From assembly GCA_016795485.1 (NCBI GenBank), contig JAEUHM010000027.1, positions 1 through 64,000 of the forward strand: a stretch of 64,000 nt of DNA, read 5' to 3'. Of this stretch, positions 1 to 18,512 are shown piece by piece. Each line of letters begins with the position of its first letter. The first letter of the stretch is position 1. The notes beneath the pieces are model-generated. The model was not told where the DNA came from. It saw only the letters and a program-made list of their open reading frames with translations, and searched no databases. The stretch comes from Verrucomicrobiaceae bacterium. Its GTDB lineage: Bacteria > Verrucomicrobiota > Verrucomicrobiia > Verrucomicrobiales > Verrucomicrobiaceae. The translations under genes were made by a program, and so were the position numbers.

Positions 1-253
1 GACCCAAGACGACCCCAATCCACACGCAGCCTGAAAACGACAGTTGACCCCACTTTGCCCACACCCTAAACCATAACCCAATCACACCATGTGTTACCTA
101 TGTCCTGAACCAAAGGTGTTACCGATGTCCTGACTGAGCCCAGCCCGCTCTGCGTTCCGTCGTCCCGCCTGCTTCCAGTACTGGCTCCATCATGTAGCTC
201 GACAACGCTCAGGGCCGCCATAAGCTCCTGCCAAGCCCTTCTCTTCCGCCTAC
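1..253. other. non-coding leader of window
   Basis: No convincing gene lies here. The stretch holds two near-identical 18-bp direct repeats (described separately) and runs up to the start of the cysteine desulfurase gene. The base pattern upstream of the repeats could be the remnant of an insertion sequence end, but no transposase is visible within the window. Confidence 0.4.
91..133. repeat. 18-bp direct repeat pair, possible IS terminus
   Basis: The motif gtgttacctatgtcctga (91-108) recurs as gtgttaccgatgtcctga (116-133), with one mismatch and a 25-bp period. Closely spaced direct repeats of this sort occur inside the ends of some transposase-bound insertion sequences. No transposase is in view, so the link to an IS is an inference. 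Confidence 0.4.
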
Positions 254-1390
254 TTGATCTACCTCGACCACAACGCCACGACCCCCGTCTTACCGGAAGT
301 CCGGGAAGCGATGTTGCCGCTTCTCACCGACGATTGGGGGAACCCTTCTAGCTCTTACCGATTCGGGTCTAAGCTCAAGTCCAAGATAGAGAGCGCCAGG
401 GAGCAGGTTGCCGACTTGATTGGAGCGAAATCTCCGAGGGAGCTCATCTTCACCAGCGGAGGAACCGAGAGCAACAACACCGCCATCCATGCTGCACTTC
501 ATGGGACCACCAAGAAGCACATCATCACTTCCCAGGTCGAGCACTCCTCGGTGCTCAGCTATTGTCGCTTTCTTGAAGAGTATCGCGGCTATCGGGTGAC
601 CTACCTCCCCGTGGACCGTGACGGCCTGCTTGCCCTGAGTGATCTTGAGCAAGCCATCGACGACGACACCGCTCTTGTTTCCCTCATGTGGGCCAACAAC
701 GAGACTGGCGTGCTATTCCCTGTCGAGGAGATAGGCACCCTCTGCCGCAGCAAAGGCGTCCTTTATCACTGTGATGCCGTGCAGGCCGTGGGAAAGCTCC
801 CCATCGTCCTCCAGCGTCTACCCATCGACTACCTCGCCCTTACTGGGCACAAGCTCGGGGCGCCGAAGGGCATCGGAGCTCTCTATGTGAACAAGAAGGC
901 CCCCTTCGTCCCCTTCATGCACGGCGGACACCAGGAGCGGTCGCGACGTGGCGGCACCGAGAACGTCGCCAGCCTTGTGGGCCTCGGCACCGCCGCCGCT
1001 CACGCTGCCAAGAAGCTGCCCAAATACGAAAGCACCGTGCGCCCGCTGCGCGATGCCCTGGAGAAGGGCATCCTTTCTGCCGTTCCCAATACTGAACTCA
1101 ATGGCCACCCCACCGAGCGCCTCGCGAACACGTGCAACATCACTTTCCACGGCATCGAGTCCGAGGCTCTGCTACTCCTGTTAGATCAGGCAAGCATCTG
1201 CGCCAGCAGCGGTTCCGCCTGTCTGGCCGATTCGCCTGATCCCTCTCACGTGATCGCAGCCATGAAACCAGGGAAGGCAGCACGGCAATGCGTGCGATTT
1301 TCGCTCGGACTGACCAACAAGGAGAACGACGTCAGCGAGACGCTCGCCGCTTTGCAAAGGTGCGTAACATCGTTGTCTGGGCAGCGCTGA
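254..1390 (+). CDS. dndA: DndA-type cysteine desulfurase
   Basis: This is a PLP-dependent cysteine desulfurase of the NifS/IscS class, 378 residues, which would mobilise sulfur from L-cysteine as a protein persulfide. The N-terminus MIYLDHNATTP is typical. The PLP-binding lysine lies in TGHKLGAPKG (K200), and the persulfide-forming cysteine in ASSGSAC (C323). The start is TTG: the frame has a stop at 221-223 and no ATG or GTG between that stop and the conserved N-terminus. It is convergent with the dnd operon that ends near 1413, and its position beside dndB/C/D/E homologues argues for sulfur supply to DNA phosphorothioation rather than general Fe-S assembly. IscS-like housekeeping use cannot be excluded, since some dnd loci borrow IscS. 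Confidence 0.88.
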   Translation: MIYLDHNATTPVLPEVREAMLPLLTDDWGNPSSSYRFGSKLKSKIESAREQVADLIGAKSPRELIFTSGGTESNNTAIHAALHGTTKKHIITSQVEHSSVLSYCRFLEEYRGYRVTYLPVDRDGLLALSDLEQAIDDDTALVSLMWANNETGVLFPVEEIGTLCRSKGVLYHCDAVQAVGKLPIVLQRLPIDYLALTGHKLGAPKGIGALYVNKKAPFVPFMHGGHQERSRRGGTENVASLVGLGTAAAHAAKKLPKYESTVRPLRDALEKGILSAVPNTELNGHPTERLANTCNITFHGIESEALLLLLDQASICASSGSACLADSPDPSHVIAAMKPGKAARQCVRFSLGLTNKENDVSETLAALQRCVTSLSGQR

Positions 1391-1412
1391 AGTGACCGCA
1401 CCTCTTCCACCA

Positions 1413-1763
1413 TCAAGAGGAATGGCGCACCACACGAATCAACTGGCCCGGCAACGATGTGCATGAAGATAACGCTTCATGGATGCGAAGGGCGAATGCA
1501 GCCGGGTTCGCGTCATCCCGTGTGCAGGCGATGATCCCGGAATGCTGTCCGCTAGTGGAACGGTGCAGGCGGAAGAAATCGAGCCGGTTCAGGGTCAGCA
1601 CCGCACGCTGTTGTTCTGTGGCAAAGTTGAGCACCTCCTCATCAGGCACCATCTGGTTGGCCCTGCCAGCTTCCTGGGAGGTCATTACATCATGGCCCAG
1701 CAGGCGCAGTTCATTCACCACACGGCGGGGAAAGTTCTCGTTGGCATAGATCGCTGCCATCAC
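1413..1763 (-). CDS. DUF5615 family PIN-like protein (putative toxin)
   Basis: A 116-residue protein resembling the DUF5615 (Mut7-C/PIN-like) family. It opens with a strand followed by ANENFP, then LLGHDV, and further on TLNRLDF, the pattern of acidic residues seen in this family. Members are usually paired with a DUF433 protein and are thought to act as toxin-antitoxin-like modules, possibly as ribonucleases; activity is inferred from family only. Its ATG overlaps the stop of the upstream DUF433 gene by 4 bp (ATGA), showing translational coupling. The two genes form the tail of the dnd operon. Confidence 0.75.
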   Translation of the reverse strand: MMAAIYANENFPRRVVNELRLLGHDVMTSQEAGRANQMVPDEEVLNFATEQQRAVLTLNRLDFFRLHRSTSGQHSGIIACTRDDANPAAFALRIHEALSSCTSLPGQLIRVVRHSS

Positions 1764-2110
1764 ACCTCATTGTTAGCCCGGATGGCGTTCTCGATCTCAT
1801 CAGCATGGGTACTTACGTAATGCCAGGCCGCGTCCAGGTCATCCCGTGTCAGGTCCGGGTAATCGGCCATCAGTTCTGCGTCCGTCGCCCCCGCGCGCCT
1901 TGCCTCCTCCAGCATCCACACGGCAATGCGGGTCATACGAATGCAAGCCTCACCTCCACAGACTCCAGGCGTGTGCCGGATGAACGTCTTGCCCGGCCCA
2001 TCACCGCTCTTCCGCTGCTTGAGGAAGATCACAAAATCCAGCACCTCTGCCTGAAACGGCTCAGGGGCAGACTCGATCTCGCTGACGATGCGCTGGGTGA
2101 TCACGCTCAT
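1760..2110 (-). CDS. DUF433 domain protein with DUF2281-like N-terminus (putative antitoxin)
   Basis: From ATG 2110 this is a 116-residue protein. The first 35 residues (EVLDFVIFLKQRK) resemble DUF2281. The rest, with HTPGVCGGEACIRMTRI and the LMADYPDLTRDDLDAAWHY helix-turn-helix-like end, is a DUF433 domain. DUF433 proteins commonly accompany DUF5615 proteins as likely DNA-binding antitoxins. A longer frame opens with GTG at 2155, which shares one base with the dndB stop (TAGTG). I prefer ATG 2110 because the DUF2281-like segment starts there, but the GTG would couple it directly to dndB. It overlaps the next gene by 4 bp. Confidence 0.75.
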   Translation of the reverse strand: MSVITQRIVSEIESAPEPFQAEVLDFVIFLKQRKSGDGPGKTFIRHTPGVCGGEACIRMTRIAVWMLEEARRAGATDAELMADYPDLTRDDLDAAWHYVSTHADEIENAIRANNEV

Positions 2111-2154
2111 GAGAGAGGTTACATCCCTGCTGTCAGTTCGCAAGCAGCGGGGCA

Positions 2155-3411
2155 CTATGACCGAAGAACGCGGGTGTAAAACTGGTATGCTTCCTTGTTA
2201 TCATCAGCATCAGCCAAACCGATGGCAAATTCGAGACACTGTCGAATCTTGGTTCGGCCTGCGCCAGAGGCATTGACGAATTGTTGGTGGGAAAAATCAA
2301 TCCTGGAAGCCTTTTCCAATTTCTTCTTGAAGTGCTCAACGCGGACGTCTCGATCTCCTACCGCTGAGGCTATCAAAGGCTTCGCGATATCGAACAAAGC
2401 CTGAATGCCCACCGTTTTGAAGATGAAGCTGCCAGGCTTCGCATCTTTCCACAAACATAACACTACAGCTTTGAAGTAGTTCACTAGCGTGGCATAAATC
2501 ATTTCGTCGTTTGATTCACGAAACAACTCGCGAAGGGGAGCCTTATGCAAATCGACAGGCTCCAGCACCTCGCGTTTGAGGCCCACATAGCGTTCCTCGC
2601 CTGCCATTTTGTTGGCGTCCTTCTTCGGGTTGGATGAAATCAAGCGCACCACACCCTCGACTACAGTTGCAAGAGAGACGACCCAACTACCTGACCTTTT
2701 AGCCGATGCAGAAGTCATGGAAAAATCATTCTCTGCAGGCACAATCACATGCCCGGCGAGCGGGGATTCAGAATCAGCATTCAGCTTCCTGGCTATGAAG
2801 ACCGCAAACTTGTCAGGCGTCCACTGTTCTTCAGCCTCCTCCTCTAGGTTGTAGCCAAACAGCTCATAGGTCTGGCTTTTACTGACCGGCTTCTGGGTCG
2901 AATTGATCGTTGCAAACAGGCGAGCTTGATACGGCTTTGGCAACCCGAAGAAAATCGAACATACCAACGGCATGTCCATTCTAGCGGGATTTCCAATAGC
3001 AGTGAAGCCGAACAAGCGATGCTGCCCGTCAATGATAGCGGCCAGCTTGCCGTTCTTCGGCACTGTCAGGACACCAAGATTAGATTCACCTGTGGGTTCA
3101 AAGCTCCAGCATGTTTTAGAATCTGTGACTTCAAAACCATCCCCTTCTGAATAGTTTGCGGCGAGGATTATCGAATTGGGAAAACTTGCGGAACCTTTGT
3201 CAATGAACCCGCCAATCTCCTTGAGTCTTTTATCGTCCAACCTGCGTTGTGATCCATCTAGCCTGTATGAGCCGTCTGGTTGCAAACAAGCCTCCAGCCG
3301 ATCACTGTAACAAGTGTCGAGCAGCAGACGGGCAGGCAGTGCCGCTACAATAAAGTCTCCGAATGGCTGGGAAACAAAGATGGCCGGAGTTTGAAATGGG
3401 TAGTTCGTCAT
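2155..3411 (-). CDS. dndB: DndB-like DGQHR-domain protein
   Basis: A protein of 418 residues with the hallmark DGQHR motif (residues 128-132 from ATG 3411) followed by LFGF, and the FATINSTQKPVSKS segment typical of DndB/DGQHR proteins. In characterised Dnd systems DndB represses the dnd operon and influences where phosphorothioates are placed; here the role is inferred. A longer frame begins at 3420, but ATG 3411 overlaps the upstream stop by 4 bp (ATGA) and gives the sequence MTNYPFQTP, so I chose it. By eye its base composition looks more AT-rich than most of the window, consistent with a transferred island. Confidence 0.85.
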   Translation of the reverse strand: MTNYPFQTPAIFVSQPFGDFIVAALPARLLLDTCYSDRLEACLQPDGSYRLDGSQRRLDDKRLKEIGGFIDKGSASFPNSIILAANYSEGDGFEVTDSKTCWSFEPTGESNLGVLTVPKNGKLAAIIDGQHRLFGFTAIGNPARMDMPLVCSIFFGLPKPYQARLFATINSTQKPVSKSQTYELFGYNLEEEAEEQWTPDKFAVFIARKLNADSESPLAGHVIVPAENDFSMTSASAKRSGSWVVSLATVVEGVVRLISSNPKKDANKMAGEERYVGLKREVLEPVDLHKAPLRELFRESNDEMIYATLVNYFKAVVLCLWKDAKPGSFIFKTVGIQALFDIAKPLIASAVGDRDVRVEHFKKKLEKASRIDFSHQQFVNASGAGRTKIRQCLEFAIGLADADDNKEAYQFYTRVLRS

Positions 3412-3911
3412 ACCTGCCATCCCTTCTTCGTACCTTTGAGTTTTCGATTGGGATTAGGCGTGGAGCCATCGCCATCAACATCGCGAAAACAAGCTTTGTC
3501 GGCGTTGACGACCCACCAGAAAAGAATGCTGAGGATACTGCCAACGAGCCCCCAAACGATTGAACCATCACGAATCGTGAAAGCTGACATGCCGATCAGA
3601 AGCACGAATACAGCAAACGCAATTATGCCGAATGACCGAAAATACGGCTGCCCTTCACTACTGCTGTCAACGTAGGCCGCCCCAGCAACGGCTGGGAAGT
3701 AAGTGCAAAGAGCAGCCGCAACCGCCGGCCAACTCCATTCCCCACTGAATCTATACTCCAATAACGAATACCAAATGCCAGCTCCACCAAGCCCAACTAC
3801 AGCAACAAGTAAATGCATCCAAAATGTCACAGATTTGAGCGGAGTCTTCAAGCGCCTCACCAGTTCGCCCGGTAAAAGGTCCAATGATTTGAGATCTTCT
3901 TTGATTGTCAT
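3408..3911 (-). CDS. multi-pass membrane protein within dnd operon
   Basis: A 167-residue protein I do not recognise. It has an N-terminal soluble segment of about 28 residues and roughly four hydrophobic segments: about 29-50, 63-81, 93-110 and 118-136. It ends with a polar, lysine-rich tail (NPNRKLKGTKKGW). It lies between the DndE-ATPase fusion (12 bp upstream) and dndB (4-bp overlap), so it is almost certainly co-translated with them. Standard DndABCDE and DptFGH sets do not include such a protein. It might anchor the modification complex or act as an effector, but nothing in the sequence shows which. Confidence 0.8.
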   Translation of the reverse strand: MTIKEDLKSLDLLPGELVRRLKTPLKSVTFWMHLLVAVVGLGGAGIWYSLLEYRFSGEWSWPAVAAALCTYFPAVAGAAYVDSSSEGQPYFRSFGIIAFAVFVLLIGMSAFTIRDGSIVWGLVGSILSILFWWVVNADKACFRDVDGDGSTPNPNRKLKGTKKGWQV

Positions 3912-3923
3912 GGTTTCGAGAAA

Positions 3924-5402
3924 TCAATTCCCTCCGTCCCTCCAGAACTGTCTCGTTCCACCCGTCGTGGTCTTGCCGCCGAGCCGCAGCACAGCGTCAC
4001 CTTTGTCCAGCATCTTTGAAACTGTGGAACCGAGGATCTCCTTCTGCTCCTTCGGCTTCAGGGTTTGCGGAGAGAAATGAACGCCTGCGGAGGCGAGGTC
4101 GGCAAAATCCACGCCATTGCTGAGGAACTTGTCGGCGTCTTGGCTGGCTAGCCAGAGAGGGAAGCCCCAGGAGCGCCCTTCGCGTGCGAGCTTCTCAAGG
4201 AGCTTGGCTTTGCCGTCCTTGGGCAAGATGTTGTGCGCTTCATCGACGAAGAGCACCATCTGAAGCGGCTGGATGCCTTTGCGCACACTGAGGTTCTTGT
4301 TGAGGCGCTCGATGAAGAAGTTCAGCACGAAGGCGACTACCAGCACGCGGGTGTCGTTATCGAGCGGCTTGAGGTCGATGATGTTCGAGCGACTGATCCA
4401 TTCCTCGAAGGGCCGCGCCTTGTCAGCGGTGGCAAAGATGTTCAGCTCCACCAGCTTGCGCAGCACGGACACTGCGACGCCTTCGGATTCGTCGTCTTCT
4501 AACTGTTGAACGAGCGAGGGAAAATCAGGACGACGCAGTGCCTGATAGGCAGAGCGCAACTCGTCTTCCTGATTTTGGCCCATCTGCGGGCCAAAGGCCC
4601 GGACTAGTGACGCAATGCGGGAGGCGATATTCGCCGTCTCGGGTCCGCTCTTACCCGCGTACAGCGGGTTGACCGGCAGCGGCGCATCGATGAGCCGGAG
4701 ATACTGCGCACCTGTGAGGTCGAAGAACTTCTTCCTGTTCTCAGCCTTCTCTTTGTCATCGGCGCTGGCTTCTTCGAGTTCGCCTTTCAAATCAAAGAAC
4801 AGGAACGATACGCCTTGCCTCGCAAGTTGGGCGAGAAGGTCGAGCGCGAGTTGGCTTTTGCCGGAGCCTGGCTGGCCTGAAATGATAAGCAAGCCATTCT
4901 TCGTCTCAGGGCCGTTCATACTCCACGGCTCAACCTCATTGAGCAGCTTCACCTTCACCTCCCGGTCCACCACGGTGAGCATCTTGCGTTTGCCTCCCCC
5001 GGCATCAACGAGGTTCACCGGCATTTGCAGTTCTGTGTTTTGCGCTCCGCGGAGGAGTTCAGCGACGAACTTCGCTTGATCACGCCCGCTCGATTCCCAG
5101 ATGTCCGCCATTCTCACACAACCAAACTCAAACGCCCGCCGAAACTCTCGTTGGAATGCCGAATCATCCATTTTTTGTCCAAAACGGAACCTGAGGGCTG
5201 CGCGATAGACTTCCTCAAGCGGACCAACCAGCGCATCCCAACTGATATCTTTGCCATTGCCTGTTGGTGCCTTGTAGTCCTGGGGCACTCCTTCCGCGAG
5301 TGCGAGACTAACGGCCGCCCGGCCAAGTACTGCTTTCGTCTTAGCTCCCACACGGGGATATACGTCTTCAATGAACTTCTCAGCAAAAAGGCTAGGGGTC
5401 AT
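3924..5402 (-). CDS. DndE domain fused to HerA/FtsK-like ATPase
   Basis: A protein of 492 residues. Residues 1-115 match the small DndE (DUF1832) fold: a helix with LGRAAVSLALAEG, then ISWDALVG, EEVYRAALRFRFG and EFRRAFEFGCVRMADI, which mirror the conserved SLAE, W..FGGE and C-terminal helix pattern of DndE. Residues 165-492 form a P-loop ATPase of the HerA/FtsK type: Walker A GQPGSGKS (176-183), LFFDLKGE (201-208), Walker B MVLFVDEAH (382-390) and WLASQD (417-422). DndE binds nicked DNA in the modification complex, so the fusion would couple a DNA-translocating or remodelling motor to sulfur insertion; that is inference. It lies 15 bp after dndD. The DndE assignment rests on motif similarity by eye. 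Confidence 0.82.
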   Translation of the reverse strand: MTPSLFAEKFIEDVYPRVGAKTKAVLGRAAVSLALAEGVPQDYKAPTGNGKDISWDALVGPLEEVYRAALRFRFGQKMDDSAFQREFRRAFEFGCVRMADIWESSGRDQAKFVAELLRGAQNTELQMPVNLVDAGGGKRKMLTVVDREVKVKLLNEVEPWSMNGPETKNGLLIISGQPGSGKSQLALDLLAQLARQGVSFLFFDLKGELEEASADDKEKAENRKKFFDLTGAQYLRLIDAPLPVNPLYAGKSGPETANIASRIASLVRAFGPQMGQNQEDELRSAYQALRRPDFPSLVQQLEDDESEGVAVSVLRKLVELNIFATADKARPFEEWISRSNIIDLKPLDNDTRVLVVAFVLNFFIERLNKNLSVRKGIQPLQMVLFVDEAHNILPKDGKAKLLEKLAREGRSWGFPLWLASQDADKFLSNGVDFADLASAGVHFSPQTLKPKEQKEILGSTVSKMLDKGDAVLRLGGKTTTGGTRQFWRDGGN

Positions 5403-5417
5403 GTATCAAAAGGGATA

Positions 5418-7502
5418 TCAGAGCTTCTTGCCGAAGTATTTCGGCTCAAGTCGTACTTGGTAATCATCAGTGCCTTCGATTCCTTCAGGTATTAAAGTGT
5501 AGCCGCGCCCAAACTGGTCGCGAACCTTTGCGAAAAGTGGTCCGTCTGGATCAATCTCAGCATTGGTCGCCAAAACGATGGACTGATGGCCTTCGCTACT
5601 CAGGTAAAGTTTATCGAGCACTGCTGCGCGAACTTCACGATCCAAGCGTCCAAGTGGGGTATCGACTACTAGCGGAGGAACAGTTTGGGCAAGTCGGCGA
5701 AGTGCTTCATTGAAGGCGAGGAGCCTCACCTGCCTTTGGCCTGCGGATGGATTTGCATCGTCCCACTGGATGCGTTCTCCACTCTTCCGAATGAGTTCAC
5801 ACTGCCAAAGCTCACCGGTGAATTGCATACCTTTGAACTCGTGACTACGTTCGGTGATCTCCAGCCAAAGGTCGCCCACCAGCTGATTGATCTGACGGCG
5901 CATCTGTTCAGATGCGCGCTTGCGCATAACGCTGGCGGCGTCACGGAATGCATGAGCTCGGGATGCTAGACTGCGGCCTTTCGAGGCTTTTTCAACGATT
6001 TCAGTCCAACGGCTTTCCTCGACCTTCAGACGGGTAATATCATTCTCGATTTGGATGCGCTGAGCGTCCAACTCTAACAACTCACGATCTATCGATTCCA
6101 ACTCAGCGCGCAGAGTGCCACGTCGCTCGTGTAGGCTCTTGCCTGCACCAATTGCAGCGATGTTCTGGTTTTGCTGCCGAATCTCATAGTCAAGGTCCTT
6201 GATATCGGCCTGGAGCGCCTCAAGCTTTCGGCAGGCGTTCTCAAGGCTTGAAACTTCAGCGGTGGCTGTCGCTAGAATCTGCCGCACAGAAAAGTTAACC
6301 TCTGGTCTATCACAGACAAAAATTTCAACGCCCTCAACCCCTTCGGGGGGAGGGTTAAAGAGGCTGAGAAGCGCTTTGTCGAGGCGTTCTGAGTAATAGG
6401 CGTGCGTGGGCGGTGAGAGCTTGTGCTGGGACTCAGGATCATCAAATACATCCGCTTTGATCGACGGAAGGCGGGGTTCGATGGCCGCTTTTCGATCAAT
6501 CCATTCTCGTTTCCGTTCCTCGCCTTCCAAATGAGCGGTAACCGCCACTCTAAGACCAGCGAGCAACGTGACCGGAATTGGGGCTTCCCAAGCTGCTTCC
6601 AGTTTACCCTCGATCTCACGTTTCGCACTCGCCACCTCATCTCTTGTGGTTTGGTCACGCTCAAGTTTGGCTGGGTCGACTGCCCCCAACGTCTTTAGTT
6701 GATCCTGTATATCGGCCAGCTCTGATGCTGCTTCTTGCTGCTTTTCGAGTAGGACCTCACGACGTTGATGATTGCCTCGCAGCTTTCCGTTCGTCAGGCT
6801 TTGGATTTGGGAACTGATGTCCGCCAGCGTCTCGGATGCCTCGCTGCCGCCATCGGCATCAACTTGCTTATTGGTGGCTGAGAAAATACTGCGAAGCTCG
6901 TCTTCCAGCCGCTCATAAGCCCACAGGCCAAGGATTCGGCTGATTGCCTGGACGATTTCAGTTTCGCCAAGGTTGACGTTTTGGCTTTTCTCCGCATCGA
7001 AAAAGAAAAACCGAGCGAGGTGGCGAGGAAGGAATGCGTCGCGAAGGCGCTCAATCATCTTCTCATCCTCTTCCACTTGCCCATCATTTGAACGCTCTGC
7101 CCACGAGCGCCATACCGGTGGCGAGTTCGGGCGAAAACGAATCTCCCGATGAAGAGTCAGTGTCTGCTCCTTACTGCTATCTGCATCCCGTTGACGAATA
7201 GCAACTGTCAGCGTGCAGGTATCTGAACCCTCGCGGCTTGCGCGCCGATTCAATGCCTTACCGAAACTGAAACGCGTTGCTTCTGATCCAGTCTCGACCT
7301 TACGTAGGTCTCCGAGACCGGCCTCTCCTGCAACTGCAAGATAAAGCGCCCTAAGGACATGTGTTTTCCCTGCTCCGTTCTTACCGCCAATCAATACGTG
7401 GGGAGAGCTGTCGGCTGGAGTGAGAAAATCAAAATTGGTGGTGTCATAGAACGGACCAAAATTGGTGATCGAGAGCGAGTCGATGGAAACAAGGTTTGCC
7501 AT
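5418..7502 (-). CDS. dndD: DndD, SMC-like ATPase of DNA phosphorothioation
   Basis: A 694-residue SMC/RecN-like ATPase, close to the usual DndD length. It has an N-terminal head with Walker A GGKNGAGKTH (39-48), a long coiled-coil middle, an ABC signature-like NPSAGQRQ (about 584) and a Walker B/D-loop VVDTPLGRLD (about 616). In Dnd systems DndD hydrolyses ATP and is thought to nick or open DNA for sulfur incorporation with DndC and DndE. It starts 3 bp after the dndC stop and precedes the DndE-ATPase fusion by 15 bp, matching the standard C-D-E order. Confidence 0.92.
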   Translation of the reverse strand: MANLVSIDSLSITNFGPFYDTTNFDFLTPADSSPHVLIGGKNGAGKTHVLRALYLAVAGEAGLGDLRKVETGSEATRFSFGKALNRRASREGSDTCTLTVAIRQRDADSSKEQTLTLHREIRFRPNSPPVWRSWAERSNDGQVEEDEKMIERLRDAFLPRHLARFFFFDAEKSQNVNLGETEIVQAISRILGLWAYERLEDELRSIFSATNKQVDADGGSEASETLADISSQIQSLTNGKLRGNHQRREVLLEKQQEAASELADIQDQLKTLGAVDPAKLERDQTTRDEVASAKREIEGKLEAAWEAPIPVTLLAGLRVAVTAHLEGEERKREWIDRKAAIEPRLPSIKADVFDDPESQHKLSPPTHAYYSERLDKALLSLFNPPPEGVEGVEIFVCDRPEVNFSVRQILATATAEVSSLENACRKLEALQADIKDLDYEIRQQNQNIAAIGAGKSLHERRGTLRAELESIDRELLELDAQRIQIENDITRLKVEESRWTEIVEKASKGRSLASRAHAFRDAASVMRKRASEQMRRQINQLVGDLWLEITERSHEFKGMQFTGELWQCELIRKSGERIQWDDANPSAGQRQVRLLAFNEALRRLAQTVPPLVVDTPLGRLDREVRAAVLDKLYLSSEGHQSIVLATNAEIDPDGPLFAKVRDQFGRGYTLIPEGIEGTDDYQVRLEPKYFGKKL

Positions 7503-7505
7503 GGC

Positions 7506-8852
7506 CTAAGCGGCTTCTTGGGGGGAGTTATCTTTGAGGTCGTCTTGAAGAATCTTCGTGAGTTCGGCAAGGAGGCCATGAGCCCGATTGTTTTCGCTGA
7601 ACTCTTCAACCTTCGAGACTAACCTTTGAAGGGTCTCTGGGGAAAGGCCCTTTTCCTGAGCGACTTCCGCTTCAAGCTTCCGCAGGCGAGCAGTGTTGCG
7701 TAAGTCGTGCATGGGTAGGCCGGAGTGAGCGTTTACGATGCGGGCGACACCACGACCGTCGTCTGGTTCGCGGGCTGACTTCCAGTATTGCTGAATGAGG
7801 AGTAGCTCTTCATCGCTAATTAGCTTCATTTTGGAAGCATCTTGCAATTTAAGCAACTCTTTGAGCAACATTTTACGGCCTTTCATGATGATAGGGCCAT
7901 TTCCCTCCGTGCCATTCATACGGCGGGTATCCCGCCAGCCGTTGTCTGGGTTCTGGACTTCGAGCAACAGCTCACGGAACTCCAACATCGACTCCATTCT
8001 CTCATCGCCATTGGCCATGAGCCCTTCACTTGCCTTGTCTCGCTCCACCACGGTGCAAGTCCAGCAACCAAAACGCGAGTTACCGCAACTCGGAGTACTC
8101 GTGTCGATATGGATCGGGCATTCTCCGCCCCCCGCGTCTCGGTAGAGCCGGTAAAGCTCCTGATTGCTACCACCCCAAGGGGGGGCATTTTGCAAAAGGT
8201 AGGCCCAGACTTGTTCAGTAGTTAGGTGCTCGATGGGGTTCGACACGTCGACCCTAGGCAGGTCTGGATGACGCCTCAGGCCATTCTTGAGTTCAATGCC
8301 AGCCAGTGTCTGGGAACGACTCGAGCTTTCGCCTCTGCGTGCACCAAGGTGCAAGATTGCTTGGCCTGTCCTCCCAAGAGTTCGTTCTACAAATTGGTTT
8401 ACCGGATCAATTTTCATCCTCTGGGTACACCAACGGAAATGGCGGTTCGGTGGCGGATAACCGCGACCAATCAGGTTCACCCAGAACGTATCAGTGGGTG
8501 GTGGCTTGAGAAGGTGAACCGACACATTGAGGTTCTCCCGTTCGGAATAGCGGCGCATTCGCTCGAGCGTATCTTCGATCATCCCCACGATCGCAGGAAT
8601 CTCTACTCTCGTATCTGTACATAGAACAGATATGGGCTTGGTTCTGCGTTCAACGGATATGGAAGACAACATCCCAAAGATGAGGCCTGCCACCATTGTA
8701 GAGTCCTTCCCTCCACTGAATCCGATTAGCCAGGGACGGGGGTCTGAGAGATATAGGTCGCGAAGGGAGTCTTCGATTTCTTGAAACACCCAGCAGGCAT
8801 AACATCGCGAGGCGTCACACGTCAACACCAACCCCAAGTTGGCCGAGGTCAA
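7506..8852 (-). CDS. dndC: DndC, PAPS reductase-family sulfurtransferase
   Basis: A 448-residue protein of the adenine nucleotide alpha-hydrolase/PAPS reductase family. The PP-loop is SGGKDS (46-51). Cysteines suitable for a 4Fe-4S cluster occur in FRWCTQRM and in the cluster CPIHIDTSTPSCG..GCWTC. DndC receives sulfur from DndA and activates the DNA backbone with ATP. The frame opens with TTG at 8852; a GTG at 8789 would give MFQEIEDSL, which fits the usual DndC N-terminus better, so the true start is uncertain. It is the first gene of the minus-strand operon; the operon promoter should lie in 8853-9107. Confidence 0.92.
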   Translation of the reverse strand: MTSANLGLVLTCDASRCYACWVFQEIEDSLRDLYLSDPRPWLIGFSGGKDSTMVAGLIFGMLSSISVERRTKPISVLCTDTRVEIPAIVGMIEDTLERMRRYSERENLNVSVHLLKPPPTDTFWVNLIGRGYPPPNRHFRWCTQRMKIDPVNQFVERTLGRTGQAILHLGARRGESSSRSQTLAGIELKNGLRRHPDLPRVDVSNPIEHLTTEQVWAYLLQNAPPWGGSNQELYRLYRDAGGGECPIHIDTSTPSCGNSRFGCWTCTVVERDKASEGLMANGDERMESMLEFRELLLEVQNPDNGWRDTRRMNGTEGNGPIIMKGRKMLLKELLKLQDASKMKLISDEELLLIQQYWKSAREPDDGRGVARIVNAHSGLPMHDLRNTARLRKLEAEVAQEKGLSPETLQRLVSKVEEFSENNRAHGLLAELTKILQDDLKDNSPQEAA

Positions 8853-10108: not shown

Positions 10109-10422
10109 AGGCGTTCCGAGGTTAAGTTTTTCGATTTCCAGGGTAAGGAGTGGCGTTCCGAAGTTAAGCTTTTCGATTTCCAGGTTCCGGAATGGCGTTC
10201 CGAGGTTAAGCTTTTCGATTTCCAGGTCAAGGAATGGCGTTCCGAGGTTACGGACTGGCACCGCTTGGTTAAGGAACGGCATTTTCTAGTTAAGACATGT
10301 CATGGCTTAGTTACGGAATGGCGTTTCTTGGTTAAGGAATGGCACCGCTTAGTTACGGAATGGCGTTCCGAGGTTCAATTTTTCGATTTCCAGGTTAAGG
10401 AATGGCGTTCCGAGGTTCAGTT
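10109..10422. repeat. 21-bp tandem repeat array, about 15 units
   Basis: The array is built of 21-bp units of the form tggcgttccgaggttaagga plus one base, alternating with units carrying ttcgatttccaggttaagg. Copies of gcgttccg fall at 10111, 10153, 10195 and 10237, exactly 42 bp apart, so pairs of units form a 42-bp higher-order repeat; the central units are single and more diverged. The shared core is ggttaaggaa. Because 21 is a multiple of three, it reads as heptapeptide repeats, but no credible start or domain accompanies it. Confidence 0.85.
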
Positions 10423-10458
10423 TTGTGGACGATAAAGGCTGAGGGAGGATCACTGATC

Positions 10459-10706: not shown

Positions 10707-11915
10707 ATGATGCTGCAACGTAAATGGTGGATCTGTGGGCTGCTTTTGCTGGCTACGACGATTAACTACATGGATCGGGTGACGCTGGCGAATGCGGCGA
10801 CTCGGATCACGACGGAGTTTGGCTTGTCTGAGCAGCAGTATGGGAATCTGGAGTTGGGGTTTGGCTGGGCGTTTGCTGCGGGCTCGCTGATCTTTGGCCT
10901 GCTGGCGGATAGGGTGAGTGTGTGGTGGCTGTATCCCGTGGTGCTGCTGGGGTGGTCTGGGGCGGGCTGGGCTTCTGGGGGAGTGGACTCGGTGGAGAGT
11001 CTGCTGGTGTGTAGGGTGTTGTTGGGTGTTTTTGAGGCGGGGCACTGGCCTTGTGCGCTGAAGACGACGTTTGCCCTGCTGAACCCGGCGGAGAGGACGA
11101 TGGGGAATAGTGTGCTGCAGAGTGGGGCGTCTGTGGGGGCGGTGCTGACTCCGCCGCTGATGCTGTGGCTGATGACGGAGGAGATCTCGACGTGGCGCTA
11201 TGCGTTCCAGGTGGTGGGCGCGGTGGGCTTAGTGTGGATTGTGGCTTGGTTTGCTCTGGTGCGGAGGGAGGACGTGGCAGTGGGGGGAGCGCCGGGGAAA
11301 CGGCAGGTGGGTTCGGTGTGGCCGATCCTGAAGAGCGCGCGGTTCTGGGCGGTGGCGCTGGTGATCTTTGGCGCGCAGACGTGCTGGCATTTGTTCCGGG
11401 TGTGGCTGCCGAAGTTTCTGCAACAGGGGCGTGGCTACTCTGAGGAGATGGCTTTGGGCTTTAGCTCGGTGTACTACATCGCAACGGATGTGGGGTGTCT
11501 TTTGGCGGGGATGCTGTCGCTGTGGCTGGTGAAGCGGGGTATGACGGCCCATGTGTCTAAGCGGCGGGTGTATCTGGTGTGCTGTGTGTTTACTTCTCTG
11601 GCAGTGCTGGTGCCGTGGCTGCCGCAGGGCTGGCTGCTGCTGGGGGTGATCTTGCTGGTGGGGATGGGTGCTCTGGGGCTGTTCCCTTGCTACTATAGCT
11701 TCGTCCAGGAGCTGTCGGATGAGCATGTGGGCAAGCTGACGGGGATCCTGAGTATGTGGGTGTGGGCGGTGACGTCTCCGGTGCATCCGCTGTTCGGCCG
11801 GATGGCGGACCAGACGAAGTCTTACGATCTTGGCATGGCATTTGCGGGCTTGGTCCCTTGGCTGGGCGTGGTCTCTCTCGCTCTGCTCTGGCGTCAGCCT
11901 GCCAAGCAGTCATAA
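10707..11915 (+). CDS. major facilitator superfamily transporter (ACS/hexuronate type)
   Basis: About 402 residues with some 12 hydrophobic segments. TTINYMDRVTLANAA in helix 1 and LLADRVSVWWL in the loop between helices 2 and 3 are typical of the anion:cation symporter branch (hexuronate, glucarate and phthalate transporters). The substrate is not determinable here; sugar acids are a family-based guess. The frame opens at TTG 10671, but ATG 10707 (or 10710) directly precedes the cytoplasmic LQRKWW and has a G-rich stretch upstream, so it is preferred. It stands alone, with an OmpA-like gene following after 70 bp. Confidence 0.85.
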   Translation: MMLQRKWWICGLLLLATTINYMDRVTLANAATRITTEFGLSEQQYGNLELGFGWAFAAGSLIFGLLADRVSVWWLYPVVLLGWSGAGWASGGVDSVESLLVCRVLLGVFEAGHWPCALKTTFALLNPAERTMGNSVLQSGASVGAVLTPPLMLWLMTEEISTWRYAFQVVGAVGLVWIVAWFALVRREDVAVGGAPGKRQVGSVWPILKSARFWAVALVIFGAQTCWHLFRVWLPKFLQQGRGYSEEMALGFSSVYYIATDVGCLLAGMLSLWLVKRGMTAHVSKRRVYLVCCVFTSLAVLVPWLPQGWLLLGVILLVGMGALGLFPCYYSFVQELSDEHVGKLTGILSMWVWAVTSPVHPLFGRMADQTKSYDLGMAFAGLVPWLGVVSLALLWRQPAKQS

Positions 11916-11985
11916 CCTTCTCTCTCGGGGGCAAGAATGGGCTTGCTACCCTGCCCGCCAGGAACGACATGTCTCACGCTTACGA

Positions 11986-13635
11986 ATGAACTTCATGCGC
12001 TCGCGTCATCCTGGCGTATCCGGTGGCAGTTACACTCCTGTCATCTTCATTGTTGCTGGTCTTGCGATCAGCGCTGCGGTGTTTTTTCTCTTCACGCGGA
12101 AGAAGCTGGAAGATCGGCCTGCTGCGGCCACGGCTCCCCTAGCGGCTCAGCAGGGAAACACTGGGTCTGAGGCGAAGAATGCTGCTGGTGGTCAGCCGGG
12201 AAAGGTGGCTGTGACTGCACCTGCGGAACCCACAACTCCACCCAGCGGGACGCCCAATGCGCCTGCAGGATCTGCCATGCAACCGCCAACGGCTCCTGGG
12301 GCAACGAAGACTACGCAAGCAACGGCTCTGGGTTTCGCTAGGCCAGGAGATCTAGGCACGCAAATGGCCCGGGCACTCTCTACGGGGGACATAGCGCAAG
12401 CAGCGAAGATGGCAGCAGCGGGTGATCCATCTCGTGCAACAGAGGCCGAGGCGGTGTTTAAGAAACTGTTTACGGACATGGGTCTGAAGGCTGCCCCAGA
12501 TGACCAAATGAAGATCCTGGGCCAAGTGGGTGATGCGACTCGGCTTTCCATCCCCCTGCTGAAGCCAGGGCAAACGGTGCCAACGATTTCGCTACAAATT
12601 GATGTGGAGAGGGATCCGAAGATGGGATGGAAGATCACGCAGTTCCGCCTGCCTGACGAGCTAGCTCCGGCGATAGCGGCAGCGATGGCGACTCCTGGTG
12701 CACCTGCTTCCACACCGGGGGCTGCTGCGACCTCGTCTACCACAGAGCCTACCGCCGCTGCTCTCGCTGCTGGGGCTAAAATGACGCCTCCAGTTGCTGG
12801 CAGTGCTCCCGCCGGCACCACGCCCGCAACTGCTGGAACAACACCCGCAGCAGCACCGAAGGGTGGCACGCCGCTTTTTGTGGTGGAACAACATGCGGAT
12901 GCGCTTGGGTTCGCGAGCGGCTTCGTCACCTCACTGTTAGGGAGAGACTTCTCGTCAGCGCGTAAGGTGATCGACGAGTCGAAGGTGCCTGTGGAGAAGC
13001 TAGCAGGTCTGTGCATCGTATTTGAAGAGGGTGACTATCAACTGAAGCCGAGCAAGCCGCTGATCATCACGGTGGCGAGCCCGAATGTCTCGTGGGTGAT
13101 CGCGCAAGTGGAGTCTGAGTCATTGCAACAGAGCACGGAGTTTGGCTTGGAGTTGCAGCGTGGAGCAGAGAGTCAGCCGTGGAAGGTGGTGGGCCTGAAC
13201 TTGTCTGAGTTGCTGGGTTCGTTTGCTCAGGTGGCGTCGAAGATTGGTGTGCCTTACACGCCGGTGGTGCAGAACCCAAAGGGCGGCGAGTCGCTGGCGC
13301 TCTACTTTGAGTATGATCAGGCTCAGCTTCACGAGCGCGCGCAGAAGCAACTGCACATCGTGGCGGAACTGCTGAAGTCCAATAGTGCTCGCAAGCTCCG
13401 TATCACAGGCCACACGGACGCTATGGGCACGGACGACTACAACGTGGCGCTGTCACAAGCACGGGCGAAGAGCGTGAAGGAGCAACTGGTAGCGCTGGGT
13501 GTGTCTGTGGATCAAGTCATCACCGAAGGCATGGGGAAGGCTGTCCCGCTGAGCCCTAACCAAAAGGCTGATGGCACGGATGACCCTGAGGGCCGGTCCA
13601 AGAACCGCCGCGCGGAGATATTTCTCGACTTCTGA
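11986..13635 (+). CDS. OmpA-family protein with N-terminal membrane anchor
   Basis: From ATG 11986 about 549 residues: a short N-terminus, one transmembrane segment (about 17-35, VIFIVAGLAISAAVFFLF), an Ala/Pro/Thr-rich linker, a middle region and a C-terminal OmpA domain. The OmpA part shows ALYFEYDQAQL, ITGHTDAMGTDDYN, LSQARAKSV and the end SKNRRAEIFLDF, the normal peptidoglycan-binding pattern. With a TM anchor rather than a beta-barrel, it probably sits in the inner membrane and contacts peptidoglycan. The frame extends upstream to 11830 within the transporter gene, but that part lacks coding character. Confidence 0.85.
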   Translation: MNFMRSRHPGVSGGSYTPVIFIVAGLAISAAVFFLFTRKKLEDRPAAATAPLAAQQGNTGSEAKNAAGGQPGKVAVTAPAEPTTPPSGTPNAPAGSAMQPPTAPGATKTTQATALGFARPGDLGTQMARALSTGDIAQAAKMAAAGDPSRATEAEAVFKKLFTDMGLKAAPDDQMKILGQVGDATRLSIPLLKPGQTVPTISLQIDVERDPKMGWKITQFRLPDELAPAIAAAMATPGAPASTPGAAATSSTTEPTAAALAAGAKMTPPVAGSAPAGTTPATAGTTPAAAPKGGTPLFVVEQHADALGFASGFVTSLLGRDFSSARKVIDESKVPVEKLAGLCIVFEEGDYQLKPSKPLIITVASPNVSWVIAQVESESLQQSTEFGLELQRGAESQPWKVVGLNLSELLGSFAQVASKIGVPYTPVVQNPKGGESLALYFEYDQAQLHERAQKQLHIVAELLKSNSARKLRITGHTDAMGTDDYNVALSQARAKSVKEQLVALGVSVDQVITEGMGKAVPLSPNQKADGTDDPEGRSKNRRAEIFLDF

Positions 13636-13712
13636 TCTGGAAAGGAGTGTGCGGACTGCACACAAGAGCCATCCGTCCTTGCGCGGTGCACCTAGCTGCC
13701 CACACTCGGTGC

Positions 13713-14315
13713 ATGGAACAGGTTCTCGTCGTCTCGCGCTCTCTTTTTGATCAACTCGGTGCTTTTCAAGGCTTTCAGCCTGACGCTGGGCGCTACCTGA
13801 CGGACCTGCTGAACCCTGAGAACAACTTTTTCATGGACCGACCTGCGGCGGAGGAAGACCCGTCCCACAAGCAACTCATTCCTTATTCACTGTTTCATCA
13901 TTCGGGTCGCCTGCTCTGCTACACGCGCGGTGGAAAAGGCGGTGAGAAGCGTCTCCACGCGAAGAAGAGCGTAGGCATAGGAGGCCACATCAATCCCGTG
14001 GATCAAACCCAAGCGCACCTTGGAGAGCAGACGTATAACAATGGAGTGGAGCGCGAGATCACGGAGGAACTACGCATCACGGGCAGCTACAAGCAGAAGG
14101 TGATAGGGCTGATCAATGACGACAGCAACGATGTGGGCCGTGTGCACCTGGGAGTGGTGCACTGGTTTGACCTGGAGTCCGATGATGTGGCATCCAACGA
14201 AGACGCTATTCAAGATCTACAGTTTGTGCCGATCAATGAGCTAGTAACGCGGATAGACGAACTAGAGACTTGGTCTGCCTTTTGCGTGAAGCACGTGGCC
14301 GAGACGAGACCTTGA
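13713..14315 (+). CDS. NUDIX-fold hydrolase-like protein
   Basis: From ATG 13713 (MEQVLVVSR) about 200 residues. A Nudix-like box is visible as GIGGHINPVD followed after an insertion by GVEREITEELRI, which keeps the REXXEE core. The earlier part, with LLCYTRGGKGGEKRLHAKKSVG, resembles a family of stand-alone phosphohydrolase-like NUDIX proteins. Substrate unknown. The upstream in-frame extension to 13647 has no coding look. It sits between the OmpA-like gene and a convergent operon. Confidence 0.78.
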   Translation: MEQVLVVSRSLFDQLGAFQGFQPDAGRYLTDLLNPENNFFMDRPAAEEDPSHKQLIPYSLFHHSGRLLCYTRGGKGGEKRLHAKKSVGIGGHINPVDQTQAHLGEQTYNNGVEREITEELRITGSYKQKVIGLINDDSNDVGRVHLGVVHWFDLESDDVASNEDAIQDLQFVPINELVTRIDELETWSAFCVKHVAETRP

Positions 14316-14332
14316 AGTAGGCACGCTGTGCC

Positions 14333-14866
14333 TCACGCCGCTGTTCCGCCTGTGGAGCCATTGGAAGGCTCGCCGGGCTTGGCGGTGGCATCCTGAGGCA
14401 GTGCAACCACGGTGCCCTGCCCCCCAGTGCCAAGTAGCTTGCGGAACATGCGCTGAGGGAAGGACTGACCTGACTCCTCGCTCTGGATCTGGCTCAGAGC
14501 TTGGCTTTTGGCCAACTCCCACGCCGGAGCAAAGCCAGGCGCGTTGATAAGCATGTGCTTCTCGGCCCTAGCTAGGATCTCCAACTCACGCATCATCTTG
14601 TTATCACTGCGCTCACTGAGACGGGCGATTTGGAGACGGAGATTCTCGTTCTCTTGGGCAAGGCGGCTCTTCTCCTTGCCAGTGTCCTGCATTTGCTTGG
14701 CGTCCAGTTCCAGTTTGTCACTGAGGTGGGTGCGGTAGCGCTTGAACTCGCGCTTGGTCTTCCAATGACTGTAGAGTGAGAGCACCAGGAAGATGACTCC
14801 CAGCAGAAAGCCGAGGAGGAATGTATTGAGTGGAGTGAAAATCTGTTCTGTCAGAGCGGCCAGCAT
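14333..14866 (-). CDS. membrane-anchored coiled-coil protein
   Basis: From ATG 14866 (MLAALTEQIF) about 177 residues: one strong transmembrane segment (FLLGFLLGVIFLVLSLY, about 16-32), then a charged coiled-coil (about 40-110), then a region with EILARAEKHMLINAPGFAPAWELA and a low-complexity Gly/Thr tail. I do not recognise a family. It is the last gene of the minus-strand run starting at xerC/parB and lies 83 bp after the preceding gene. The upstream frame to 15013 overlaps that gene and is unlikely to be coding. Confidence 0.7.
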   Translation of the reverse strand: MLAALTEQIFTPLNTFLLGFLLGVIFLVLSLYSHWKTKREFKRYRTHLSDKLELDAKQMQDTGKEKSRLAQENENLRLQIARLSERSDNKMMRELEILARAEKHMLINAPGFAPAWELAKSQALSQIQSEESGQSFPQRMFRKLLGTGGQGTVVALPQDATAKPGEPSNGSTGGTAA

Positions 14867-14949
14867 GGTGGGACGAGTATTTGCAGGGGGTTGTGGGAGA
14901 ACGTGCGCTGTAAACGTAGCGCGCTCTCGCGGCCTGTCACACGGCAATA

Positions 14950-15747
14950 TCAGGGTTTCACCTTGGGCTTGCGCAAAACTCTGGCTAGGAGGATGCGCTT
15001 CACCTGTAGCCATGGGCTGGTCCCATTGGCTTTAGCGGTGAATATCTGCTCCGTGACATCCTCGGTGATCTCAATGCGCCCCAACCGGAGGAGCAGGTAG
15101 GTCTCTTTGTCCTTAGTTTTCATGTCAGGTGCCACATCACTACGAGCCGTCTTACCGGCAAAGGTGACCTCAACGCTGGCATCTAAAGGCACTTCTGGAC
15201 ATGAATACTCAGCCACGATCTGATAGGTCCCGGCGGCCAGCTTTGATAGCTTCCACGATTGCTCGCCCAACGTCACATAAGAGGCACCTACAGGTCCAGG
15301 ATTGATCGTCTCATTGGGATCAAGGGAGAACACTTGGCCGGGAATCTGGCCCGTAGCGAGGAGTGACTTACCCGTTTCCACGCGGGTCTGTGGAGGCTCC
15401 ACGATTCCGTTTCCGACCGTCACCAAACGAGTGATCTTCGAAATCTCCGCCGCATACGCTGCCTTCTCTGTCTCGCTCAATGCCGCCGTTTGGGCTGCCT
15501 TCAAGTCAATGAGATACTGGTCGATCAGCTTCCGGTGCCGCTTCTGAAGGGCGTCCCGGTACGTTTGCTCCAACTGCTCCAACCGCCCCGGTGCCTGAGT
15601 CGATTCTGGAGACACGGAGGCAGCTTGAGACGCAGAACCAGTGCCCGTAGCCGGAGAGGCGGGCACAGGTGGGGCAATCTGAGCCATAAGCGCGTCCGCA
15701 CATGTCATCATCAAGGCTAACAACCAAGAACCGTATTTATTTGCCAC
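14950..15747 (-). CDS. secreted coiled-coil/beta-sandwich protein
   Basis: From GTG 15747 about 265 residues. GGAGG lies 11 nt upstream, which decides this start over the frame's first codon at 15786. An N-terminal signal-like segment (LLALMMTCADALMA) is followed by a Ser/Thr/Pro-rich stretch, a coiled-coil (LEQLEQTYRDALQKRHRK) and a C-terminal beta-rich part with WKLSKLAAGTYQIVAEYSC and LLLRLGRIEI. This last part resembles the WTLPDLPPGGYEVVLRY segment of the neighbouring gene at 17260. It overlaps the preceding gene by 11 bp. Function unknown. Confidence 0.75.
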   Translation of the reverse strand: MANKYGSWLLALMMTCADALMAQIAPPVPASPATGTGSASQAASVSPESTQAPGRLEQLEQTYRDALQKRHRKLIDQYLIDLKAAQTAALSETEKAAYAAEISKITRLVTVGNGIVEPPQTRVETGKSLLATGQIPGQVFSLDPNETINPGPVGASYVTLGEQSWKLSKLAAGTYQIVAEYSCPEVPLDASVEVTFAGKTARSDVAPDMKTKDKETYLLLRLGRIEITEDVTEQIFTAKANGTSPWLQVKRILLARVLRKPKVKP

Positions 15748-17263
15748 GATACCAACCGCCTCCTTCCTCGGCTGCTTTCCTTGCACGCCCCTCGTGCTCT
15801 AACATATCGGCCAGGAGGCCAGCTTCGAGCGCTGCTTTGCGGGTGTAGCCTTTGTCTTCAGGCCCATCGACAAGCGCCAACCCATGATCGATCAACACGT
15901 GCTGAAACAACCCTGTCGTCTCAAGGTAAACGAGGGCCACTAATGTGCCGTCAGGTGCCGGTGTGGCCCTGGCTAGAAGTTTAAGCGGTTTGCCTGTGAG
16001 ATAAAGTTCCGTGAACTCACGGGCCGCATGACCAATGGCCACCGCACCGAGTTCGTCGATGCCGAAACGTGACTTGATCAAGTCCATAGTGCGACCTTTG
16101 CGCGCATCCATGGGCGGGCACACCGTCCACATCAACTTCACCCAGAATGACTCACCTTCGTGCTCCACCTTGAACCTGTCCCCCGTATTGCCTGGGTCAG
16201 CCACATACTTCACGTCCGTGAGCGTGGTGAGGCCCGACTTGCTGACAGACGGAGCCAGTTGGAAAAAAGACTCCGTGCCAGACTCAAGAAACTTGGTCAC
16301 ACGCTTCGTCTCCGCCTGCACCACTCGCGCACCGGCTCCTTTTTCTCCCAGACCGGCCAGGAGTTCCAGATAGTCCTGCACCACTGGGGTCATCGCCTGC
16401 TTCATCCTCTCGTTGTGCAGTTCCTCAGCCTTTTGCAGAGCTAGTGAGACGGCCGCAGACTCAGTGGCCGCATTTGCAGGTGGACCGCTCAGGTTTAGCA
16501 GCGCCTCGTTGACAGGTTCCAGCACCACTTGCATTAGCCTGAAGGCGATCTGGCCAGCGTTCATTAGTTCCAGGCGAAAGGTAACTGGCAGGCGTTGGAC
16601 AGTGACGATCGGTTTAGGCGCAGTTGGTTGTTCTGGCACTGAGCTACCGTTTCCATTGGCGCTCGTTACCGAAATGGTTGCGCTGTTGGTCGCTGCAATC
16701 GTCAGGTTGGACACTTCCCGAAACCGCACTGCGGCCACAGGTGGAGTCGTTGGCAGGGTTGCGGTCAAAGGCATGGGCACCGCCACAGCGGGAGGTGCCA
16801 CCGCCGCTACGATCCTCACCACGTAGCGTCCAGGCTGAATGTTGGTGAGCGTCCACTCGGCGCCGGAGGTGGATGCGGCCCAGTTGTCCAGCACTCCTGC
16901 GTTCCAAGTCACTCCCCCAGAGACCCTGGCAGATGCCAGCGGCAGAGTGATGCCTGGTGCTGGTGCCGCCACCTCCTTGAGTCGCTGGCTAGCGGCCACC
17001 AAGTTCTCTCTGCGGCGCTTGGCAGACAAAGCTAGGGCGTAATCACCTGACGCACCGGCATTCATCTCCAAGTTAGCCAAATGGGGAGCGAACAACTCAT
17101 TGAGACCTACTGTTTCCCGGGCTGCAGCTGCCTCAAACTTCTTCCGCATCTCCACCAAAGCAGGCGGCTCTGGCAGTGGCGGACCCATTTGCGCATGAGC
17201 CATGAAGGTCGCCGCCAGCAAGCCCATGACCGAGCACAGAAAATGGTTCTTGCGCGGCATCAT
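15737..17263 (-). CDS. secreted protein with degenerate staphylococcal-nuclease-like domain
   Basis: A 508-residue protein with a signal peptide (SVMGLLAATFMAHA), a helical segment, a beta-rich region containing WTLTNIQPGRYVVRIVA, another helical segment and a C-terminal part resembling the SNase fold: GDRFKVEHEGESFWVKLMWT, GKPLKLLARA, GTLVALVYLE and LIDHGLALVDG follow the usual strand order. The arginines and acidic residues of the nuclease active site do not appear at the expected places (VKLMWTVCPPMD), so it is probably not catalytic. It overlaps the upstream gene by 4 bp (ATGA) and the downstream gene by 11 bp. Confidence 0.75.
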   Translation of the reverse strand: MMPRKNHFLCSVMGLLAATFMAHAQMGPPLPEPPALVEMRKKFEAAAARETVGLNELFAPHLANLEMNAGASGDYALALSAKRRRENLVAASQRLKEVAAPAPGITLPLASARVSGGVTWNAGVLDNWAASTSGAEWTLTNIQPGRYVVRIVAAVAPPAVAVPMPLTATLPTTPPVAAVRFREVSNLTIAATNSATISVTSANGNGSSVPEQPTAPKPIVTVQRLPVTFRLELMNAGQIAFRLMQVVLEPVNEALLNLSGPPANAATESAAVSLALQKAEELHNERMKQAMTPVVQDYLELLAGLGEKGAGARVVQAETKRVTKFLESGTESFFQLAPSVSKSGLTTLTDVKYVADPGNTGDRFKVEHEGESFWVKLMWTVCPPMDARKGRTMDLIKSRFGIDELGAVAIGHAAREFTELYLTGKPLKLLARATPAPDGTLVALVYLETTGLFQHVLIDHGLALVDGPEDKGYTRKAALEAGLLADMLEHEGRARKAAEEGGGWYRGK

Positions 17264-17958
17264 TCGTTCACGGGCACGAGTTGCACTCCATACAAGTCCA
17301 TGAGCCCGCCCTTGCTCACCTTGGATGCGCTCACTACCAGCGGCCCACTGCCCGTCCTCACCCGCAGGGTTCCCAACAGATGGTCCTCTGGACCGGCCAA
17401 GGTGATGTGAGTATCTGCATTCAAAGAATAAAACTGCTCCTGAACCCGCACTGTGCCGCCTTGGGTAGCGCTGGAGGTGTAACGCAGCACCACCTCATAC
17501 CCGCCCGGTGGCAGATCAGGCAGTGTCCACATCGCCCGTGAGCTGGTCGTCCTCCAGTCTGTCAGCGCCTTGCGAGAGTCGTCATACTTCACGCCCTCCA
17601 GAGTGGCCTGTGTCAGCGGCAGGTCTATTTTCCCTCGCGTTGCTTCCAGTTCCTTCACTGTTCCCAGCAGCAGGCTTAGTTTCTCCGCAGAGGCTAGGTC
17701 CATCTCAGCCCGCTGGCGCTTTTCACGAGCGGCCAGTGCCTGTTCCCAGTCCCACGCTGCCGCAGCGCGCTTCTCCGCAGCTTGTAGCTCCGTTATCCGC
17801 AGTTTTAGCGGTTCCACAGACGCGCGGGCCAGTGCTGCTTCAAAGTCAGCCCTCAGCCGTGCCAGCGCCGTCTCGCTTGTGGACTTCTCCTGGCTGCCTG
17901 AAGAGGCAGCCATCATCAGCAGCAATACGAGGGAAACACCTGCTCTCCAGCGTGACAT
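17260..17958 (-). CDS. secreted coiled-coil/beta-sandwich protein, paralogue-like
   Basis: From ATG 17958 (MSRWRAGVSLV) about 232 residues. A signal peptide (LVLLLMMAASSGS) is followed by a long coiled-coil rich in Ala, Glu and Arg (about 30-95) and a beta-sandwich-like end with AMWTLPDLPPGGYEVVLRY and LVPVNE. The design matches the proteins encoded at 14950 and 15737, suggesting descent by duplication. The frame reaches upstream to 18024. It overlaps the next gene by 4 bp. Carbohydrate or surface binding is conceivable from the beta-sandwich, but unproven. Confidence 0.75.
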   Translation of the reverse strand: MSRWRAGVSLVLLLMMAASSGSQEKSTSETALARLRADFEAALARASVEPLKLRITELQAAEKRAAAAWDWEQALAAREKRQRAEMDLASAEKLSLLLGTVKELEATRGKIDLPLTQATLEGVKYDDSRKALTDWRTTSSRAMWTLPDLPPGGYEVVLRYTSSATQGGTVRVQEQFYSLNADTHITLAGPEDHLLGTLRVRTGSGPLVVSASKVSKGGLMDLYGVQLVPVNE

Positions 17959-18032
17959 CGACGCCCATGGTAGCGGCTCGACACCACCTTTCCAAGCAGC
18001 GATTTCGTTCACCTTAGCAATCACCCCGCCCG

Positions 18033-18494: not shown

Positions 18495-18512
18495 CGGCGC
18501 GGCGGACACGGA

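Follow-up and report, generated by a model that had tools for sequence, protein, structure and literature searches.

A rare DndE-HerA/FtsK fusion in a dnd operon of a Verrucomicrobiaceae bacterium

In classical systems of DNA phosphorothioation, only a fraction of the consensus sites is modified. A DndE fused to a motor bears on site finding by DndCDE and on this partial modification, since a motor built into a naturally occurring DndE gives a direct handle on whether ATP hydrolysis affects phosphorothioation density or spacing. According to excerpts of Rakesh, Aravind & Krishnan (2024, PMC10853773), which cite their ref. 24, a subset of Dnd modification systems has such a fusion, of DndE with a 'clade-3' HerA/FtsK. 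Because the architecture is already in print, the fusion is valuable as a handle and not as a discovery; our literature search found no paper with experiments on it. Here we analyse a stretch of 64,000 nucleotides (the window; positions 1 to 64,000 of contig JAEUHM010000027.1, assembly GCA_016795485.1) from a Verrucomicrobiaceae bacterium, which encodes a protein of this kind.

The fusion protein (492 aa) is encoded on the minus strand by an uninterrupted ORF with an ATG start (3924..5402). It consists of a DndE domain (residues 1-121; 5040..5402, minus strand), a variable linker (residues 122-164; 4911..5039, minus strand) that is gapped and poorly conserved in the alignment and has low model confidence, and a HerA/FtsK-type ATPase domain (residues 165-460; 4023..4910, minus strand). 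An initial annotation had read the gene as DndE joined to a HerA/FtsK-like P-loop motor and had suggested profile searches, structure prediction and a survey for the same fusion as checks; the reading is confirmed. The Pfam profile of DndE, PF08870, matched residues 6-88 of the window protein weakly (E 8.3e-4, 20.1 bits, cut-off 25), and this score below the cut-off left doubt about the DndE identity from sequence alone. The doubt was removed because all seven family members (the window protein and six relatives) match PF08870, the best with 1.2e-10, and because a model of the N-terminal domain finds solved DndE structures first. This AF2 model, built with the domain's own relatives (pLDDT 90.7), has DndE as all of its top solved matches: 7x4e (Z 12.3, rmsd 2.6, 104 aligned), 4lrv (Z 10.6) and 5wtu (Z 10.2). 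TraY chains of the F relaxosome follow with Z of about 7-8, and all other unrelated rows are below Z 4.5; the resemblance of DndE to TraY was already pointed out by Rakesh et al. (excerpts of PMC10853773). The model contains five helices in the order expected for two RHH units, and no strand was assigned by DSSP. A PDB HMM search with the N-domain profile did not recover DndE, whereas the structure comparison did, and hhalign aligned the fused domain with four free-standing DndE proteins over 97 columns (E 2.3e-4, probability 44%).

The match to TIGR03184 was also weak (E 0.0016), and with 18.8 bits against an equivalog cut-off of 71.85 the N-terminal domain is a divergent DndE-superfamily domain and not a TIGR03184 equivalog. 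It is the sole PF08870 match in the genome of the window. The inter-helix H1-H2 loops in models of fused DndE have 4-8 and 5 residues, and the excerpts of PMC10853773 give 3-5 and about 7 residues for clade 1 and about 15 and 14 for clade 2. A scan of the neighbouring DndD sequence for CxC or CxxC found none, i.e. no CxC zinc hook. Short H1-H2 loops and a DndD partner without the CxC hook place the fused domain in DndE clade 1.

The ATPase half has PADLOC DndH as its closest profile (residues 167-459, 1.7e-25), and its nearest solved chain is the C-terminal domain of DptH/DndH (7es4), with HerA (4d2i) next. Walker A (GQPGSGKS) lies at residues 176-183 and Walker B at 382-390, including VDEAH at 386-390, exactly where the initial annotation had placed them. 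The segment REGRSWG (407-413) is the arginine-finger region (R407/R410), and LASQ (418-421) supplies the sensor Gln (Q421). As judged from the primary structure, the HerA/FtsK motif set is complete, with Walker A, Walker B, a Gln sensor and an arginine finger upstream of that strand, and the catalytic positions are invariant in 7/7 aligned sequences, the relatives being 52-88% identical to the window protein. For the full-length protein, AF2 gave a model of low confidence (pLDDT 60.6, about 22-34 for residues 121-180), so quaternary structure cannot be inferred from it, and its Foldseek ranks only support the sequence results.

Both domains are present end to end in all six relatives, which are a Verrucomicrobiaceae MAG (88% identity; locus L002), a genome of the window's own family (72%), two Verrucomicrobiota MAGs (67 and 64%), and a Desulfobulbaceae MAG and Methylomonas sp. 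SURF-2 (both 52%). The initial annotation had considered that a frameshift or gene-model error might create the fusion. Such an artefact, in which a gene-model or assembly error joined two separate genes, has as its sole point of support the window protein's own DndE profile score below the curated cut-off. Against it, the same continuous two-domain frame recurs in six further loci from three higher groups; as 6/6 relatives carry the fusion, we rule the artefact out and regard its probability as negligible.

The DndE-HerA fusion is rare, being present in 2 of 387 genomes of the phylum sample versus free-standing DndE in 5. Wider sampling added no members: the phylum of Methylomonas (1/398 genomes), its order (1/201) and the phylum of the Desulfobulbaceae MAG (1/198) each returned the seed itself only. 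The fusion was unmatched in the plasmid collection, the phage collection gave only weak matches to the ATPase region (about 25-28% identity), and no relative of the fusion was found among viral contigs. These searches thus give no sign of the fusion in phages or in catalogued plasmids.

The operon of the window encodes, in minus-strand order, DndC, DndD, DndE-HerA, a four-TM protein, a DGQHR/DndB-like protein, a DUF433 protein and a DUF5615 protein, and a cysteine desulfurase gene is convergent to it. The DndC sulfurtransferase (7506..8852, minus strand; 448 aa as listed) scores above the cut-off of TIGR03183 (373.5 bits) and has an SGGKDS loop at residue 46 and a cysteine cluster; its listed start codon is TTG, and the true start may be further downstream. 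DndD (5418..7502, minus strand; 694 aa) is a DndD-type ABC ATPase with a coiled coil that matches TIGR03185 below the equivalog cut-off (2.8e-44) and PADLOC DndD with 1e-57. Downstream of the fusion lie a 167-aa membrane protein whose hydropathy profile shows about four hydrophobic segments (3408..3911, minus strand), for which no Pfam or NCBIfam family was found, and a DndB-like DGQHR protein of 421 aa (2155..3420, minus strand; TIGR04172 1.9e-128, 428.7 bits, cut-off 450; TIGR03187 DGQHR domain above cut-off). A DUF433 antitoxin-like protein (1760..2155, minus strand; PF04255 5.8e-20) and a DUF5615 PIN-like toxin candidate (1413..1763, minus strand; PF18480 5.3e-23) follow. The convergent DndA/NifS-like desulfurase (254..1390, plus strand) matches TIGR03402 with 505.6 bits (cut-off 530.75) and PADLOC DndA with 3.1e-139. 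By sequence, the Dnd gene set of dndC, dndD and dndE plus a cysteine desulfurase is therefore present. The operon (window 1-8852) lies right at the beginning of its contig (C20:1), with the far side beyond view. Its G+C content is 53.9% versus 57.1% in the window beyond it, and the lower value would fit a transferred island. Two tandem arrays were also seen in the window, one upstream of the operon (10110-10424; 42-base unit, 7.5 copies, 73% matches, open in several frames) and one at 40265-40601, whose 82-base unit is repeated in 4.1 copies (92% matches) and contains an internal palindrome-like AAAAAAGGCTTTTTT.

Comparison with the loci of the relatives showed a constant dndC-dndD-dndE/herA core with adjoining nuclease and regulator cassettes that are swapped between loci and missing in two. 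The dndD gene is directly upstream of dndE/herA in all loci except L004, where a separate gene intervenes, a candidate nuclease with HARE-HTH and Mrr_cat domains (2e-24), and dndC is present wherever the contig extends far enough. A convergent desulfurase gene is retained on the same side in four relatives, which all belong to Verrucomicrobiota (L002, L003, L004 and L010). Between core and desulfurase, L002 has HATPase_c_3 and Methyltransf_35 genes replacing the DGQHR cassette, L004 has a 200-aa protein and a DndB-type DGQHR protein, and L003 and L010 have a different four-TM protein with DGQHR, the similar-sized membrane gene occupying the place of 3408..3911 in the window. L005 and L006 consist of dndC-dndD-dndE/herA only. 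The contig edge of L003 carries an HNH protein of the PT-DNA-binding type (3.9e-30; 105 bits against the NF045808 cut-off of 180). In the same stretch (L003 2-1873), this HNH ORF is followed by a DndD frame without its N-terminal half, either a truncated gene or an assembly junction at the contig edge. In the stretch of L002 that holds the replaced cassette (11483-18517), a TrwC relaxase gene lies just past the desulfurase, which hints at a mobilisable island, and three genes resembling Wadjet (Jet) plasmid defence were identified by eye near the minimal locus of Methylomonas sp. SURF-2 (L006 12422-17787).

The pair of a small four-TM protein and a TIGR04172 DGQHR protein was found at window 2155-3911, L010 10559-12237 and L003 3531-5365, and again at L038 8893-10867, L039 8872-10559 and L040 9240-10970. 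Each of the strong TIGR04172 matches examined in the phylum sample has a membrane gene directly upstream, whose product of about 170-220 aa shows some four hydrophobic segments, and these four-TM proteins are highly divergent, with sequences barely alike. The contexts are DndE-HerA loci (window, L003, L010), R-M loci with N6-adenine methylases (L039, L040), and, in L038, a HATPase_c_3 gene without dnd genes. TIGR04172, a family named for phosphorothioation, thus also occurs in loci without a detected dnd gene. We found no paper on this cassette.

We infer that the ATPase moves a DndE reading head along DNA. The protein rather probably serves as DndE in a DNA phosphorothioation complex and brings its own HerA/FtsK-type dsDNA motor, which would make it a motorised scanning subunit. 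The computed basis for this reading is the identity of the domains, the intact motor motifs, the constant dndC-dndD-dndE/herA order and the lack of a second DndE match in the genome. Because nuclease and regulator genes vary between loci while the fusion stays beside dndC and dndD, the simplest reading is that the fusion belongs to the modification machine, and L005 and L006 indicate that the motor accompanies the modification core. The same architecture was independently described in modification systems (excerpts of PMC10853773). The ATPase domain would assemble as a ring around duplex DNA and translocate by ATP hydrolysis, the DndE heads and the DndD ABC ATPase, in a presumed complex with DndC, would read the target sequence, and DndC would insert sulfur from the DndA-like desulfurase in a predicted phosphorothioation reaction. 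With the motor, the search for sites or their modification would become processive along self DNA.

Alternatively, the HerA part could act as an effector of restriction or interception, as a motor like that of DndH which engages unmodified DNA entering the cell; a single polypeptide would then couple marking to exclusion. Two points leave room for this role. Among motors, that of the restriction protein DndH is nearest to the ATPase, and the minimal loci lack any other effector: in L005 and L006 the core has no flanking nuclease, which makes the motor the sole candidate if those loci restrict anything. DptF/DndF (TIGR03238), the marker of DndFGH, was unmatched in the window's genome, and among the six relatives it gave a single sub-threshold match (24.7 bits, cut-off 50; G066). 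Nor did any of the seven genomes have a PT-dependent HNH (NF045808) above its cut-off of 180, the best match in the window's genome being 21.6 bits on another contig. Matches to TIGR04095 in that genome are uninformative, as this family matches in 14/14 control genomes. The polypeptide, however, lacks a nuclease domain, and the candidate nucleases adjoining the core in L003 and L004 would make a second effector unnecessary there, so that we consider a restriction role unlikely. Less likely still is an ATPase acting as an assembly or regulatory switch that, for example, loads or releases DndD/DndC without translocation. Its fusion to a DNA-recognition subunit in the N-terminal place and the end of the protein soon after the ATPase core fit a switch, but every motor motif, the arginine region and the sensor Gln among them, is invariant across the relatives. 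It would be a long shot that the three genes dndC-dndD-dndE/herA, as they stand in Methylomonas sp. SURF-2, suffice as a complete system in which one DndE-motor guides phosphorothioation and, with no nuclease involved, also keeps out unmodified DNA by translocating. The initial annotation had proposed that the fusion would tie a motor to the sulfur-insertion machinery and may bridge modification and restriction. The former stands, as the motor is joined to DndE within a DndC/DndD/DndA-like sulfur-modification operon; the latter is not supported by the present evidence, which leans the other way, with no DptF above threshold in 7 genomes and the fusion kept with dndC-dndD with or without a nearby nuclease.

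Overall, the protein resembles free-standing DndE (PF08870; 4lrv, 5wtu, 7x4e) in its fold and its position after dndD, but free-standing DndE has roughly 105-157 aa and no motor, and the fused domain is divergent. The nearest relative of the ATPase half, the C-terminal ATPase of DndH/DptH, belongs to a restriction subunit of ~1400-1700 aa with nuclease and other domains that acts in DndFGH, whereas here the motor sits on DndE and DptF is missing. The SIR2-HerA and HerA-DUF4297 antiphage pairs share the ATPase superfamily, whose HerA members are ring motors, but they use separate effector proteins, and the fusion, joined to DndE, matches them more weakly than DndH. As in the fusion of PMC10853773, a single polypeptide adjoins a DndD-related ABC ATPase and its HerA part groups with DndH motors. 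As far as the excerpts of that paper go, the window protein agrees with the architecture in every respect tested and is a new member of it; they give the fusion one sentence, and the present analysis documents cassette swapping and dndCDE-only loci.
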